Assembly: GCA_022340425.1 (NCBI GenBank)
Contig: JAJDNY010000094.1
Location: 1 to 41,487, forward strand
Length of the DNA stretch: 41,487 nucleotides
Direction: 5' to 3'
Source of the DNA: Desulfobacteraceae bacterium
GTDB taxonomy: Bacteria; Desulfobacterota; Desulfobacteria; Desulfobacterales; JAABRJ01
Position 1 is the first letter of the stretch, and every line of letters begins with the position of its first letter. The position numbers and the translations under genes are program-made. Below, piece after piece: positions 2,499 through 39,183 of this stretch. The notes under the pieces were generated by a model. It ran no database searches. It worked only from the letters and a program-made list of their open reading frames with translations, and had not been told where the DNA came from.

Positions 2499-2558
2499 GA
2501 TTTCCCGTTTATCCTCAGAATCCGCAGGCACCCTCTGTCCACGAAGGCATGGCCCAAC

Positions 2559-2744
2559 GGCTCAGGCAGGTCTTCTGACTTCCCAGCCTTTCCGGCCGCC
2601 TTCCCACCCCGCTCTGGCGGGGCAGTGGCATACACCTGCCGAAAAGGTTCCCGTCCTGGCATCCAGGACCGGCTGGGTCACAGCGGCGGGCCCGTCCCCG
2701 ATTCGCACGGGGTTCCCTATTGAGCTGACAACAGCACCTGAACC
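2559..2744 (-). promoter_or_regulatory. Cobalamin (B12) riboswitch aptamer
   Basis: Read on the minus strand, the closing stem P1 pairs GGTTCAGG (2737-2744) with CCTGAGCC (2559-2566), allowing one G-U. Inside, in order, are TAGGGAACCCCGTGCGAATC, GCCGCTGTGACC, the conserved TATGCCACTG, GGGTGGGAAGGCGGCC, and AAGTCAGAAGACCTGCC. These are the conserved blocks of the cobalamin (B12-box) class. It controls btuB and likely the BtuF-like gene after it. Its position is internal to the locus: btuFCD lie upstream of it, outside its direct cis control. Confidence 0.96.
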
Positions 2745-2755
2745 TATTCCAGGTC

Positions 2756-2784
2756 TGCTTATGCCAAGAACTGCCTGAAGTCAA
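2756..2784 (-). promoter_or_regulatory. Candidate sigma-70 promoter for the riboswitch-btuB transcript
   Basis: On the minus strand TTGACT (2779-2784) and TAAGCA (2756-2761) are separated by 17 bases, ending 12 bases before the riboswitch P1 stem. The -35 is good and the -10 weak. Placement fits a leader transcript that begins just before the aptamer. Confidence 0.45.
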
Positions 2785-29932: not shown

Positions 29933-30106
29933 TATAATTTTTACACAAAAATATTGAATTATTTTTTTCGAAATTTATTGTAAGTAATATACTTATTCTC
30001 ATCAACGCAGCCGCCACCGCGGCCGGTCCGCAAGGTTCGCCCCTCCGTAAAGGGGCCCGGGCGGCGCCAATGCGTGCAACCGTCTCTCAGGGGAGAGGGA
30101 GGGATT

Positions 30107-30757
30107 ATGATAAAGGATAACGGGCAGCAAAAACCGGCGCAAAGAAGCCTGCCCCGGGCATTCTCGCATGACCTCAGGGGCAGGCAATCGGTTCGGGCGA
30201 CCTTTAAACTGACCGAGGGTTGCATCAACGCGATTCACATCGTTGCCGCGCACATGGGGATTAAACAGAAATCGCTGTTCGACCACTTGATGGAGGACAT
30301 TCAGACGCTGAGCCTGATTGCCGAGCAGCTGCCGAATTTCCGTCTCAGCCCCGCCGGACGCATCCAGAAGACATTCGTCCTCAGCCGCAGATCGCTGATT
30401 TCACTGGAGGAGATTGCCAGCAGCTTCAACGCCCCGCGCGATGTGCTGATCGAACTTTCGGTGCGGCGGCTGCTGCCGGTCATCGCCGAAGTGCGCAAAA
30501 ACCATGTGAAACGAAAAAAAACGCTGAAGGGTATTGAGGAGCATCTCGCGGGTGGGGCCGCCCTGCTGGATCGGATCGGCCATGAGTTGGGAAAAGACGA
30601 TGCCGTGCACCAGGAACTGGCGACGGTCATGGCGCACTATGCCCAGGCGGTTGAAAACATCAAAGCGCTGGTCGCGCGGGGTCGGGCGATCGAGGACTTC
30701 GACGAGGAAATCTTGAAAAAACAGATGCCGGCCCACGGCGACCGGGAGCCGTCCTGA
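30107..30757 (+). CDS. Uncharacterised protein with two ribbon-helix-helix-like segments
   Basis: 216 aa, cytoplasmic, not recognised by a named domain. Two similar blocks are visible: RQSVRATFKLTEGCINAIHI followed by AAHMGIKQKSLFDHLMEDI (about 27-66), and RIQKTFVLSRRSLISLEEIA followed by SSFNAPRDVLIELSVRRLLP (about 85-124). Each is strand-helix-turn-helix, the order of MetJ/Arc DNA-binding folds. The last 90 residues are helical and charged with a coiled-coil look. A DNA-binding regulator is a reasonable guess but not shown. Start at ATG 30107 follows GGGAGGG; upstream codons to 30074 are possible but less likely. It diverges from the Hsp20 pair and converges on the membrane-protein cluster. 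Confidence 0.6.
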   Translation: MIKDNGQQKPAQRSLPRAFSHDLRGRQSVRATFKLTEGCINAIHIVAAHMGIKQKSLFDHLMEDIQTLSLIAEQLPNFRLSPAGRIQKTFVLSRRSLISLEEIASSFNAPRDVLIELSVRRLLPVIAEVRKNHVKRKKTLKGIEEHLAGGAALLDRIGHELGKDDAVHQELATVMAHYAQAVENIKALVARGRAIEDFDEEILKKQMPAHGDREPS

Positions 30758-30807: not shown

Positions 30808-31551
30808 TCAGCTCTGTTCCTCGCCGGGCCGGCCGTGGTGGGTGAGAAGCTTCTGGCCGCCCTCGCCTTTGCCCGGGTCTTCTGCCCTGACGTGCAGCGC
30901 GTGTTTTTTGCCCGTGATAATGACCCCCATGCGCAGCGCCATTTCTCGCCGGTATTGAAACTCCTGCTGTTGGCGGTCTTTTTCCAGCCGGTAGCGGGAA
31001 ATCAGAAACACGACCGCCAGCAGGGTGGCCCCGCCCAGCAAAACGGCAGCGCCCCAGAAGAGGTACCCGATGGCCGCTTCGCCGATGCCGGCCAAAAAGG
31101 CGAAAAACCTGTCGATGTGCATGATGGCGACAACCACCACGCACAGGAGCATCAGACTCAGCAGAAACGGCATCTGGTGATGGACGGTGCCGATGGCGGT
31201 TTGGAGCTTTTGATGCCAGGGGGCCTCCGGGGCGTGCGGGGGATTTTCGGCCGCGGCCCCTGGCGTGGGTGCCGCAGCCCCGGCAGACATGAAAAAAAAG
31301 TTGAAGGCGGTCACGAACACGCCGGTCAGAAAGGTTGCGGCGATCGGCATGATCAGGGCGGCCATGAAAAAGTTTTTCCAGGAGAAGGGGATATTGATCG
31401 GGTGCAGCTGGCACAGAAAAAAAACGAGGAAAATGAAAACTTCGAGCGAGAGGATCACATACAGGTAACGGATCACAAATTTCCGCATTTCAGAGGTCTT
31501 AAAGAGGGTGGCAACACCCTGCAGCTCGATTTCGGGTCTTTCTTCGGGCAT
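30808..31551 (-). CDS. Uncharacterised four-helix membrane protein A' (paralogue of 32648-33397)
   Basis: 247 aa, four predicted transmembrane helices (about 28-48, 61-88, 126-150, 160-186), cytoplasmic N- and C-termini. Opening LQGVATLFKTSEMRKFVIRY and helix 1 LYVILSLEVFIFLVFFL parallel the protein encoded at 32648-33397 closely, as do FSWKNFFMAALIMPIAATFL and FNFFF. Between helices 2 and 3 there is a Pro/Ala-rich loop. After helix 4 comes a Glu/Arg/Gln helix (KDRQQQEFQYRREMALRMG) and a charged tail. No known domain. Starts at ATG 31551 after GGAAAG; an upstream in-frame ATG (31593) seems less likely. Last of a three-gene same-strand cluster. Confidence 0.65.
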   Translation of the reverse strand: MPEERPEIELQGVATLFKTSEMRKFVIRYLYVILSLEVFIFLVFFLCQLHPINIPFSWKNFFMAALIMPIAATFLTGVFVTAFNFFFMSAGAAAPTPGAAAENPPHAPEAPWHQKLQTAIGTVHHQMPFLLSLMLLCVVVVAIMHIDRFFAFLAGIGEAAIGYLFWGAAVLLGGATLLAVVFLISRYRLEKDRQQQEFQYRREMALRMGVIITGKKHALHVRAEDPGKGEGGQKLLTHHGRPGEEQS

Positions 31552-31637
31552 ATGTTCTTTCCTGCCTGCCATGGCGGGCTGCGCGCGGTCCAAAAAACCG
31601 CCCCGGCGCGCTCAAACGGCGCCTGGCGGTGAGGCCC

Positions 31638-32633
31638 TCACACCGTGTCAAGGCCTCTGCTGTCCGATCCCTGCGGATTCTGGTAGGCTGCCGCCAGATG
31701 CGACCAGGCCGCTTTGTAGGAGTCCAGCGCACCCTGAAGCCTGGGGATCCGCCTGCGGGCGAGGGTTTCCATGCGAGTGCGGTCGCTTTCGCTGAGCGTG
31801 CCTTGGGACTCGGCCTCCAGATAGTGGAGCAGGGTCAGGGCGAAGAGAATGCGCCGGGTGGTGTCGTTTTGGAGCGGGGCCGCAGGCATGGTCATGCGGA
31901 TGTGGCGGAGGGCGGCGGGGGCTGGCGGGACCGCGGTCAAATAATCTCCCATCACGCAGCTGAGCTTCTTGTGGGCCGCTTTTAAACGCTTCAACTGGGC
32001 TGCCAAATGGGGGTGCCCGTTTGCCACCATCGCCGCCACCTGCTGAATCTCCTTTGGCTGGGGGGTTTCCGCGTACTCCGCGGGCGTCATGAAAAAGCGT
32101 TCCAGTTGGGTGTCGCTGGCACTGCGAAAGTCGCTCTGGTTTAGTCTTTTGAGAATCTCCAGCATGTTCCTGCAGTGCTGCATCACGATGCTGTGAAGTT
32201 TGGCCCCCAGCATCTCCCGCAACAGGGGGTAAGGATCCGACCGGGCGGCTTCAAGCCGCCTCTCCAGGGGCGCGCAGGCCCGCCGCACGTGCTGCTGCAT
32301 CAAGGCGTGAAAATAGATCGGGCTGCTCACCCCCTTCTGGAAGCGCAGGCGTTTCCAGTGGTCCAGGAGCAGGTAGATTCCCATCATCAGGATGATGCAG
32401 ACTCCGCCCACCAGCACCATCGCCCAGCGCGCATGCTGAACGGGAAGATCGGCCCGGGCTGCCAGGGGAAATAACAGCACCAGGGCCGCCAGGCCCCCGA
32501 AAAGAGCCCCCACGACGCTGTTGACCGCAAGCCCCGAGCGGCTTTTAAGTGGCGTCCAGTGTCCCCCGCCGGTGCCCGCTGGAGACCGGTCCAGGGCCGA
32601 CGGATACGGGTTTGAAAAGGTTGGCAGGCCCAT
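31638..32633 (-). CDS. Uncharacterised membrane protein B with long helical cytoplasmic domain
   Basis: 331 aa. Two transmembrane helices near the N-terminus (about 36-59 and 68-90), then a 240-residue soluble, helix-rich region with many Arg/Leu pairs: KGVSSPIYFHALMQQHVRRA, GAKLHSIVMQHCRNMLEILK, HPHLAAQLKRLKAAHKKLSC. No recognised domain. It lies between A (14 bp upstream) and A' (86 bp downstream), all on the minus strand. The first 30 residues are Pro/Gly-rich and the ribosome-binding site for ATG 32633 is weak, so the start could be slightly later. Confidence 0.6.
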   Translation of the reverse strand: MGLPTFSNPYPSALDRSPAGTGGGHWTPLKSRSGLAVNSVVGALFGGLAALVLLFPLAARADLPVQHARWAMVLVGGVCIILMMGIYLLLDHWKRLRFQKGVSSPIYFHALMQQHVRRACAPLERRLEAARSDPYPLLREMLGAKLHSIVMQHCRNMLEILKRLNQSDFRSASDTQLERFFMTPAEYAETPQPKEIQQVAAMVANGHPHLAAQLKRLKAAHKKLSCVMGDYLTAVPPAPAALRHIRMTMPAAPLQNDTTRRILFALTLLHYLEAESQGTLSESDRTRMETLARRRIPRLQGALDSYKAAWSHLAAAYQNPQGSDSRGLDTV

Positions 32634-32647
32634 GGGTAAGAGGGGGC

Positions 32648-33397
32648 CTAATTGGACGGCGGCAGGATCTTGAGGTTCCCCTTGCCCGTTTCCTGCCCCT
32701 CGTAGACAAGGCTCTCGGGCGCAGAGATGATTTTGCCCTTCCGGTCGATGACGGTGTTGTCGTCCAGAATTAGCAATCCCAGTTTGTCCATCACATCGTT
32801 TTTGTACTTGTACTCGTATTGCATCTGTTGGCGGTTGAGGCGGTAGTTGACAAACAGCCACAGCAGCCAGAGCAGGACGGCGACCCCCAGAAGCACCGCG
32901 GTGCCGATCAGGATATGGCTCAAGGCCCTTTCGCCGGCGTTGATGATGAAAAGAAAAATGTCATCCATCTTAAAGAGCAGCATCGAGCCGGTGACGATCA
33001 GAAAGAGGATCGGCAGCAGTGGCACCTGGCGCATGTTGCTCAGATAGGCGCTCAGCTTCATGAAATGGTTTTTCGATTCCTCGCCGTTCACCGGATTGCC
33101 GGCGATCTCCTCGTCGGCCGGGTTGATCCCGAAAAAAAACTTGTTGAACGCCAGAATGAAGATGCCCAACAGGAACGTGCAGGCCACCGGGATGATGAAG
33201 GCGGAATAAAAATAGAGCTTCCAGGGAAACGCGCCTTTTTCCGGCCCCATGTTGCCCACAAAGCTGACCAGGAAAATGAGGATTTCGATGGCCACGATGA
33301 AATAAAGGTAGTTCAGGAAAAAACTCTTCAGTTGGACGGCGTCGAACAGTCGCGCCACCCCGACAAAGCGTTCGGTATTCTGATGTCGCTTGCCCAT
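32648..33397 (-). CDS. Uncharacterised four-helix membrane protein A
   Basis: 249 aa. Four transmembrane helices (about 28-50, 62-88, 125-150, 160-186). Conserved with its paralogue: FVGVARLFDAVQLKSFFLNY, LYFIVAIEILIFLVSFV, WKLYFYSAFIIPVACTFLLG, FNKFFFG, and after helix 4 NRQQMQYEYKYKNDVMDKLG then LLILDDNTVIDRKGKIIS, a short strand-rich tail that looks like the start of a PAS-like or receiver-like sheet but is too short to be one. ATG 33397 follows AAAGGTGAG. First gene of the A-B-A' cluster; no assigned function. Confidence 0.65.
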   Translation of the reverse strand: MGKRHQNTERFVGVARLFDAVQLKSFFLNYLYFIVAIEILIFLVSFVGNMGPEKGAFPWKLYFYSAFIIPVACTFLLGIFILAFNKFFFGINPADEEIAGNPVNGEESKNHFMKLSAYLSNMRQVPLLPILFLIVTGSMLLFKMDDIFLFIINAGERALSHILIGTAVLLGVAVLLWLLWLFVNYRLNRQQMQYEYKYKNDVMDKLGLLILDDNTVIDRKGKIISAPESLVYEGQETGKGNLKILPPSN

Positions 33398-34295
33398 CTT
33401 GCTCACCTTTCCATACCCGAAGGGCCGCCCCGTCAGGACTGCGGCCTTTTTTTCGATACTTGCGACCCCGCTTGCGCCGGCCCCCACCCCCCAGTGGCAC
33501 CATCCCCGGAGGCCTCACCCTTGGCGGCTTCCGTCCGGGAATTTTTTGGGACCGGGGGCTTTCGGGCGCTTACCACGACTGGAGGGCGCCGTTTATAAAG
33601 TTTGTTTTCCGGGCGGCCTCCGGCAATCGTCGGGGCCTCCCTCAAGTGGTCCTCTCCGCTGGGGATTTTAGGTGCCCCAATGGGACACCGGTTTCAAAAC
33701 ACCCTGATCGGTGGCCGAGCAACGGTCCTTTAAAACAGGCGACTCCGCAAAGTCCGATTACCGCCTTGGGCCGTATTGCGTAGTCGCTGCGGCGTGGATA
33801 AGCGCCCCTCCCTTTCGGAGATTGGCGCATCATAACCTGGCGGTTTTACCAAATCATCCAGTTTTGGAACTTTTTACCGGCCCCTTAAAATTTGTTTATT
33901 ATACCATCTGGGCAACTGATGGCAAGCATCAGGCAAAAGGGCGGAAGGCGGCGGGGGCGTGGGAGGCCGCTGCTGTGCCTGGGGCCGGCGCTGCAGGCGG
34001 GGCTATCCGCCGGGCGGTGGGCCGAAGCCGAGATAGGGGCTCACGCGCCAGGCGGATTTTACCGACCAGGGGCAGGGGTTCTGTCTTTACGGGGTAAGGG
34101 CAGCGGTGAAAAATAACGCTGCATCGCGCATGCCTTTTTGCCCGCCACCGGCCTTGCATCCCGCGCCCATATCGCGATTGCGTCGCGGGATGGGCCTGGG
34201 TGACGAACCACAATCCGGCGCCTTTTTGGGAATCTGTTCACTCCCGCGATCACTGAAGGAAACCCCGGCCGCCGGGTTCTTCCAATATTCAGACG
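33398..34295. other. Gene-poor 898-bp stretch with palindromes
   Basis: No convincing gene on either strand. Features: a near-palindrome GGTGCCCCAATGGGACACC at 33671-33689 (operator-like, upstream of the A-B-A' genes); an AT-rich patch around 33870-33910 with TTTATTATACC (-10-like); a segment around 33750-33835 that shares TCGCTGCGGC with the other gene-poor region; and a 9-bp inverted repeat CATCCCGCG/CGCGGGATG at 34157-34165 and 34184-34192. A hairpin with imperfect GAAG-AACCCGG/CCGGGG-TT-CTTC arms follows the lactate permease stop at about 34255-34285 but lacks a T-run. Confidence 0.5.
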
Positions 34296-37153: not shown

Positions 37154-37170
37154 CGCGGATTAAATCCGCG
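37154..37170 (-). other. Palindrome across the aspartase stop codon
   Basis: CGCGGAT (37154-37160) and ATCCGCG (37164-37170) with 3-nt spacer TAA. It overlaps the stop codon of the cNMP-aspartase gene. No T-run. Possible mRNA 3'-end or processing hairpin inside the operon. Confidence 0.4.
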
Positions 37171-39016
37171 GCCGGGTCATTTTCTGGGGAGAGAGAATGT
37201 CTTCCAGTTGGCTTTGGTTCAGAAGGTTTTCCTCCAGGACCAGATCCATGACGCTCTTATTTGTCTCCAGCGCTTTTTTGGCGATCCGGGTGGCGTTTTC
37301 GTAGCCGATGTGGGGCACCAGCGCCGTGACGATCCCGATGCTGTTGGCCACGTAATCGCGGCAGCGCTCACGGTTGGCCGTGATGCCCTTGATGCAGCGG
37401 TGGGTCAGGGTGTTGACGGCCTGGATCAGCATCCTCAGCGATTGAAAACAGTTGAATGCGAGCACCGGCTCCATGACGTTGAGCTGCAGCTGACCGGCCT
37501 CGGCCGCCAGCGTGACGGTCAAATCGTTTCCAATGACCTGAAAGGCCACCTGATTGACCACCTCGGGGATCACCGGGTTGACCTTGCCCGGCATGATGGA
37601 GGACCCCGGCGCCATAGGGGGCAGGTTGATTTCGTTCAGCCCCGCCCGGGGGCCGCTGCTGAGCAGCCGCAGGTCGTTGCAGATTTTGGATATCTTGACG
37701 GCAATCCGTTTGAGCACGCTCGAGAACATGACAAAGGCGCCCATGTCGGAGGTCGCCTCCATCAGGTTTTCGGCTTGGACCAGCTCGAATTTGGCGATCC
37801 GCGAGAGCTCCTCGATGGCCAGGCTGGAGTACTCCGGTTTGGCCGTGATGCCGGTACCGATGGCCGTGGCCCCCAGGTTGATCTCCCGGAACAGCTGGAC
37901 CACGACGTTGATCCGCTGGATGTCCTCCTTGACCGTCACCCGGAAGCCTTCGAATTCCTGCCCGAGGGTCATGGGAACGGCATCCTGGAGCTGCGTGCGC
38001 CCCATTTTGATCACATCCGAGAATTCCACCGATTTCTGCTTCAGTTCGTAGGCCAGATCCGCCAGGGCGTCGGTGAGCTCGCTGTAACTGAGCAGGATGG
38101 CCAACCGAATCGCCGTGGGGTAGGCGTCGTTCGTGGACTGCGATTTGTTCACATGATTGTTGGGGTGAATGATATCGTATTCGCCCCTGGAGCGGCCGAG
38201 GATTTCCAGGGCCCGGTTGGCGATGACCTCGTTGGCGTTCATGTTGGTGGAGGTGCCCGCGCCGCCCTGGATCATGTCAACGACGAATTGGCCGTGCAGA
38301 TTGCCGGCAATGATTTCATCACAGGCCTTGCAGATGGCCTCCCCCACCTCTTTGTCCAGGTCTCCCAGCTTTTGATTGGCTTTGGCGGCCGCTTTTTTGA
38401 CCATCGCCAGGGCTTTGACGAAGTTGGGGAAATGCGACAGCGGGATGCCGGTGATGTCATAGTTCTCAAGGGCCCTGAGAGTCTGGACACCAAAGTAAGC
38501 ATCGGCCGGCACCTCCCGCTCACCGAGCAGATCGTGTTCCAGGCGCTGTTTGCCCCCGGCCGGTGCCGCTATCGCTGCCCCCCGGTATCCAAAACTCGCA
38601 TACTTCAACCGGTAGGCCATGACCCGGGCGACCTGGGATAGGATTTTGCCCGCCATTTCCGGGTTCTGTTTCAGGATCTCTTCGACCGCCTGGCGCTCCA
38701 GCGCCAAGACGCGGCTGTCCACCACGGCCCGGCAGGTATTGGTATGCTCGTCTTCATCCAGCATGGCGCCTTCGCCCACAAAGTTGCCCTCACCGATCCG
38801 CGCCACCGTTCTTTGAACATCCCCGATTCCCCTCAGGATTTCCACCTCCCCCGCCTGGATGACGAACATTTCCGTGCGTGTTGTGCCGGCGTGAAAGAGG
38901 TAAGCTCCCAACGGATAGGTTCTGCGGGTGACTTTCTGCGCCAGAAGATCCAGTTCGGCTTCCGACAAGTCCTTGAACAAGACGATGTTTTTTAAAATGG
39001 ATGCTGATTCTGGCAT
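37160..39016 (-). CDS. aspA: Aspartate ammonia-lyase fused to an N-terminal cyclic-nucleotide-binding domain
   Basis: 618 aa. Residues 8-135 are a CRP/cNMP-type beta-roll: ILKNIVLFKDLSEAELDLLA, FHAGTTRTEMFVIQAGEVEI, IGEGNFVGEGAMLDEDEHTN, CRAVVDSRVLALERQAVEEI. Residues 158-618 are a full fumarase/aspartase enzyme: EHDLLGEREVPADAYFGVQT, GGAGTSTNMNANEVIANRAL, HPNNHVNKSQSTNDAYPTAI and the signature APGSSIMPGKVNPV (471-483; the GSS loop holds the catalytic Ser). It deaminates aspartate to fumarate and ammonia. In the cNMP pocket, the Glu82-to-Arg96 distance is longer than in CRP, so binding of a cyclic nucleotide is not certain. It sits between a dicarboxylate/amino-acid symporter and a binding protein. 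Start at 39016 after AAAGGGGGAC. Confidence 0.92.
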   Translation of the reverse strand: MPESASILKNIVLFKDLSEAELDLLAQKVTRRTYPLGAYLFHAGTTRTEMFVIQAGEVEILRGIGDVQRTVARIGEGNFVGEGAMLDEDEHTNTCRAVVDSRVLALERQAVEEILKQNPEMAGKILSQVARVMAYRLKYASFGYRGAAIAAPAGGKQRLEHDLLGEREVPADAYFGVQTLRALENYDITGIPLSHFPNFVKALAMVKKAAAKANQKLGDLDKEVGEAICKACDEIIAGNLHGQFVVDMIQGGAGTSTNMNANEVIANRALEILGRSRGEYDIIHPNNHVNKSQSTNDAYPTAIRLAILLSYSELTDALADLAYELKQKSVEFSDVIKMGRTQLQDAVPMTLGQEFEGFRVTVKEDIQRINVVVQLFREINLGATAIGTGITAKPEYSSLAIEELSRIAKFELVQAENLMEATSDMGAFVMFSSVLKRIAVKISKICNDLRLLSSGPRAGLNEINLPPMAPGSSIMPGKVNPVIPEVVNQVAFQVIGNDLTVTLAAEAGQLQLNVMEPVLAFNCFQSLRMLIQAVNTLTHRCIKGITANRERCRDYVANSIGIVTALVPHIGYENATRIAKKALETNKSVMDLVLEENLLNQSQLEDILSPQKMTRPRI

Positions 39017-39183
39017 GGGTCCCCCTTTTCGGTAAGTGACAGGTTCTCTCGGATGTGCAAACTCCCCGGCTGTGCGGTTTCCGCAACCCCGGTCGCACGA
39101 CGTTTGGGGCATTTGGGGTGGCGGCAGAGGGTTTCCAACCGCCGGACCATGGCGCCTTTTTTTCGGCACCCCAATGTTTCAGC

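Follow-up and report, generated by a model that had tools for sequence, protein, structure and literature searches.

Genes A and B of a Desulfobacteraceae locus form a conserved pair that may encode a membrane complex, with a diverged A paralogue in one genus

Introduction

The locus studied here carries three neighbouring genes, A, B and A', on which nothing was found in the literature, and it raises the question of whether their products work together as one membrane system and what such a system could do. A preliminary description had presented them as two paralogous four-helix proteins flanking a two-helix partner, and had suggested a hetero-oligomeric complex such as a channel, a sensor or a defence-like device. 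Throughout, the window means the whole stretch of DNA that was analyzed (41,487 nucleotides).

Results

Gene calls and selection

The three genes were located in the window as follows.

32648 to 33397, minus strand: gene A, a four-helix membrane protein of 249 aa (open reading frame, with homologues in many Desulfobacterota)
31638 to 32633, minus strand: gene B, two N-terminal helices followed by a helical cytoplasmic domain of ~240 aa (open reading frame)
30808 to 31551, minus strand: gene A', a diverged four-helix paralogue of A

According to the ORF list of the window, all three genes are co-directional in the minus-strand order A, B, A'. The ATG start codon of B lies 14 bp past the A stop, and A' begins 86 bp past the B stop. 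In comparison with the congener G001, dN/dS was 0.19 for B and 0.34 for A', and 0.08-0.12 for the neighbouring Hsp20 genes. Purifying selection acts on B and A', and both evolve somewhat faster than neighbouring genes. For A, ~100 homologues were present in the sequence sets read. The selection on B and A', together with these homologues, indicates that the large antisense ORFs at the locus are not genes. A, B and A' are real genes. Convergent with A' lies another gene (30074-30757, plus strand), which showed 86% identity in the congener and a dN/dS of 0.11, and gave no Pfam match.

Protein architecture and conserved residues

Hydropathy analysis predicted four membrane segments each in A and A' and two in B, the latter at the N-terminus. 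The remaining ~240 residues of B were predicted to be all-helical (model pLDDT 73, pTM 0.62), so that hydropathy and the B model agree with the architecture first proposed for these proteins. In A, the four helices are followed by a predicted cytoplasmic helix and a short beta segment at the C-terminus. Judging from the charge distribution and this C-terminal helix, A seems to have both termini in the cytoplasm. The AlphaFold2 models of A and B were modest, that of A being weak (pLDDT 70, pTM 0.35).

A-type four-helix proteins were defined as a family in the present analysis, with the signature E38, FPWKxYF (57-63), P70, G78, F84-N85, P126, G155 and L187 in A. E38 sits inside TM1. It belongs to the most conserved columns of the 101 members together with FPWKxYF, P70, G78, F84-N85, P126 and G155; the residue was retained in 97 rows for E38, 99 for W59, 100 each for P70 and G78, and all 101 for F84. 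A itself carries every A-type feature, namely the TM1 glutamate, FPWKxYF, the proline and glycine of TM2, FN at the end of TM2, the proline at TM3 and YxL after TM4. No catalytic-looking residue set was found among the conserved positions of these 101 members.

A and A' were 35% identical across A residues 11-212 (E 1e-37), a span that includes all four hydrophobic segments. The order, strand and paralogy previously reported were thus borne out. The homology is real and wider than the first two helices and the helix after TM4 that had been claimed, and the stretch quoted in its support (FVGVARLF...) lies mostly ahead of TM1.

Searches for known families and folds

For none of the three proteins did a Pfam, NCBIfam or PADLOC score reach the curated cut-off, and no PHROGs hit was convincing, in line with the earlier statement that they match no known family. 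Searching PDB sequences with the A profile and with B revealed no relative. Weak scores to CorA, holin, AmaP, DUF2755 and Rv1733c were far under the cut-offs, and these candidates were rejected. Foldseek and VIA-align found no significant structural match for the A and B models, the VIA-align Z values reaching up to 6.9, a range that the tool rates as common for helical proteins.

These searches bear on the possibility that A, with or without A', is an ion or solute channel or a proton-coupled device working through the helix-1 glutamate, with B gating it from the cytoplasm. The near-invariant TM1 glutamate, which is retained in A' and in a remote ~280-aa family, would fit such a device, as would the conserved proline and glycine of TM2 and a two-helix overlap of the weak A model with the MscS-type protein YbiO (Z 6.7, 66 residues, rmsd 2.6). 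However, the YbiO overlap was under the significance level of the tool, no Pfam channel domain was found (MS_channel gave no match in A, A' or B up to E 5), and a buried glutamate may equally serve helix packing. We consider a channel improbable, though conceivable in view of the conserved buried glutamate.

Distribution and gene contexts of the A family

The A1 profile, which was built from A and A' together, matched 120 of the 389 genomes of the order and 58 of its 150 genera, remote relatives counted in. Further A-family carriers were found by genome scan in Desulfosarcina, Desulfoluna, Desulfobotulus, Desulfuromonas, Syntrophobacteraceae, Desulfomicrobium and Tharpella. The A-family genes are mostly solitary, and their neighbours are clade-specific housekeeping genes: rplU-rpmA-obg, isopropylmalate dehydrogenase, alaS, an S49 peptidase, a TilS-like gene or an ApeI/ketosynthase operon, depending on the clade.

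At Tharpella-type loci (L155 4836-10527; also L105, L112 and L093), an A-family gene heads an apparent operon, followed by genes for a putative lipoprotein, an ApeI/FabA-like dehydratase, a 4HBT thioesterase and two ketosynthases. This arrangement resembles aryl-polyene or fatty-acid-type clusters. It was considered as a clue to the function of A and was set aside, being confined to the Tharpella-type clade.

Origin of A'

A' was found in G000 and G001 only, that is, in the genus of the window. In the tree, A clustered with the Desulfosarcina-group A genes (support 99/91), and A' was placed in a different supported set (100/98). A constraint making A and A' sisters was rejected by the AU test (p 0.0006). 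The long branch of A' qualifies this result and leaves its exact sister uncertain. This rejection and the position in another clade ruled out a recent duplication of A, and the simple duplicate subunits originally envisaged did not survive the test.

The alignment showed that A' keeps E38, W59, K60, P70, G78, F84 and N85 (A numbering) and has the A-type membrane signature except for FSWK and a Y to F change within the FPWKxYF motif. The C-terminal motif LxILDDNTVIDxxGxII of A is missing from both A' sequences, where A stands in place of V216 and G221. Because this conserved motif is missing, A' is a diverged paralogue of A and not its full equivalent; the tree gives it a separate ancestry. Adjacent divergent A-type gene pairs without B were found in G261 (L173, G261:C226 1289-2756) and G040 (L075, G040:C352 191-1566), indicating that A-type pairing arose elsewhere too. 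Given these pairs, a functional pairing of A-type proteins is plausible.

Linkage of B to A

The B profile matched 16 of the 389 genomes of the order and 3 of the 150 genera, namely the genus of the window and two genera of the family containing Desulfosarcina. B is much rarer than A. Coordinate comparison covered the 15 genomes (3 genera, 2 families) in which the contig extends far enough to include A; in every one of them, A is the next gene upstream of B and on the same strand. In the congener G001, B-A' is present and the contig ends inside B. A was also followed by B at each of the 11 named Desulfosarcina-type loci, which overlap the coded genomes and are not an independent sample. Eight of these 11 loci have a thiolase and other neighbours in common, indicating that part of the A-B conservation is plain synteny. 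The pair was also kept amid other flanking genes in the window and at L081 and L083.

No B without A was found where this could be tested. A without B occurred in dozens of genomes, including G043, which is nested inside the B-bearing clade. B goes with A, yet A occurs alone, indicating that the dependence is one-sided. On these gene orders, the conserved unit is A-B and not A-B-A': across genera the proposed order held for A-B in every testable genome, and A' extended it only in the genus of the window.

It is also conceivable that A, B and A' act independently, the A-B linkage being inherited synteny without common function and A' a chance neighbour. A usually stands alone in unrelated contexts, B is confined to few related genera and A' has a different ancestry, all of which would be expected under independence. 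However, the A-B pair is intact in the window and at L081 and L083, whose flanking genes on either side are not those of the Desulfosarcina arrangement, and the gap between the two genes is short in the window. We regard independence as unlikely, while giving it more weight than a channel.

The same distribution bears on an anti-phage defence or toxin-immunity device, to which a cluster of membrane proteins without assigned function would conform; a defence-like device had been suggested earlier. The PADLOC search was empty for A, B and A', and the A query found no relative in viral contigs. The chromosomal location is conserved within Desulfosarcina, the neighbours are housekeeping genes, and A is distributed across Desulfobacterota. 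With this vertical pattern, the defence suggestion was abandoned as very improbable.

The region upstream of A and other features of the window

Two features were identified upstream of A.

33898 to 33925, minus strand: sigma70-like promoter site, TTGCCA-16-TATAAT with TG before the -10 (11/12 consensus matches; a consensus match only)
33744 to 33883, minus strand: degenerate copy of a MITE-like palindromic element in the leader upstream of A (~72% identity)

The sigma70-like site, ~500 bp upstream of A, is a candidate start of an A-B(-A') transcript. The palindromic element is a dispersed sequence of ~127 bp with terminal inverted repeats of ~26 bp (for example, the copy at G000:C137:10465-10593). 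It had ~45 matches at 85-100% identity in G000, a lower bound with 40 of 154 candidates scored, and weaker matches in the congener; none was found in 56 other relatives. The structured leader upstream of A (fold z -3.4) was considered as a riboswitch. This was rejected, because no Rfam family matched even at E 5 and the leader piece is a degenerate copy of the dispersed element, which has at least 40 other copies. The element was not counted as part of the A-B(-A') system.

Elsewhere in the window, a single reading frame (37163-39169, minus strand) encodes an aspartase/fumarase-type lyase with an N-terminal cyclic-nucleotide-binding domain, and a cobalamin riboswitch (2548-2756, minus strand) immediately precedes the gene of a TonB-dependent receptor (438-2531).

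Discussion

We favour, with about even confidence, the reading that A and B are inherited together as a unit of two genes and that their products form a complex in the inner membrane. A would be its core, B a partner that depends on A, and A' an optional second subunit. In such a complex, A would form the membrane core through its four helices, with both ends in the cytoplasm and the near-invariant glutamate within helix 1. The FPWKxYF motif would be placed at the outer membrane edge ahead of helix 2, and helix 4 would extend into the cytoplasm. A probably oligomerises. The two-helix hairpin of B may insert next to A and hold the helical domain in the cytoplasm, where it could couple A to a cytoplasmic partner or control A. 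A' would be a diverged A-family protein that was added downstream in the genus of the window, probably as a second subunit. We infer this topology, the physical complex and the roles of the three proteins from sequence features and gene order. The most likely role would be that of a cell-envelope sensing or scaffolding device rather than an enzyme.

Several points stand against a complex. The A model is of low pTM, a conserved partner is lacking for most members of the A family, and the B linkage could reflect common ancestry in few related genera. The 86 bp between B and A' would allow A' to be transcribed or to act separately. Moreover, family and fold searches gave no direct hint of activity. 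A more far-reaching version is that A-B(-A') represents a new kind of hetero-oligomeric Desulfobacterota envelope device. Its A-type core would be built on a helix-1 glutamate coupled to protons or ions, and would recruit partners that differ between lineages: B in the Desulfosarcina group and diverged A-type subunits in other lineages. This is speculative, and we hold it to be slightly less probable still than the channel.

The analysis defines two unannotated membrane-protein families. The first occurs across Desulfobacterota, and its membrane core is strongly conserved; the second was found only next to the first. The A-B pair is present in cultured Desulfosarcina species and is therefore open to functional tests. 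Should A turn out to be an ion-coupled or sensing device, a major group of sulfate reducers would have an envelope component that has gone unrecognised.

Among known systems, MscS-type mechanosensitive channels offer two membrane helices (YbiO) that superpose on TM1-TM2 of A; however, A has neither a sequence match to them nor an MS_channel domain, and the overlap score is in the chance range for helical proteins. The anti-phage membrane proteins of PADLOC-DB likewise occur in small clusters containing membrane proteins, whereas A, B and A' match none of its profiles and show a vertical inheritance pattern. An unnamed Desulfobacterota membrane family of ~280 aa (L063, L065-L068, L070-L073) is a remote homologue of A (hhalign probability 98.3, E 1e-14). 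At the loci read, neither B nor A' was seen beside its genes. Unlike A, its members have ~55 extra residues between TM1 and TM2, predicted to be extramembrane, and a different C-terminus; this segment is conserved, probably extracytoplasmic, and looks like a small sensor domain. As in A, they have the TM1 glutamate, four helices and the post-TM4 helix, and their motif FPFRxWF has FP(W/F)(K/R) in common with the A family.
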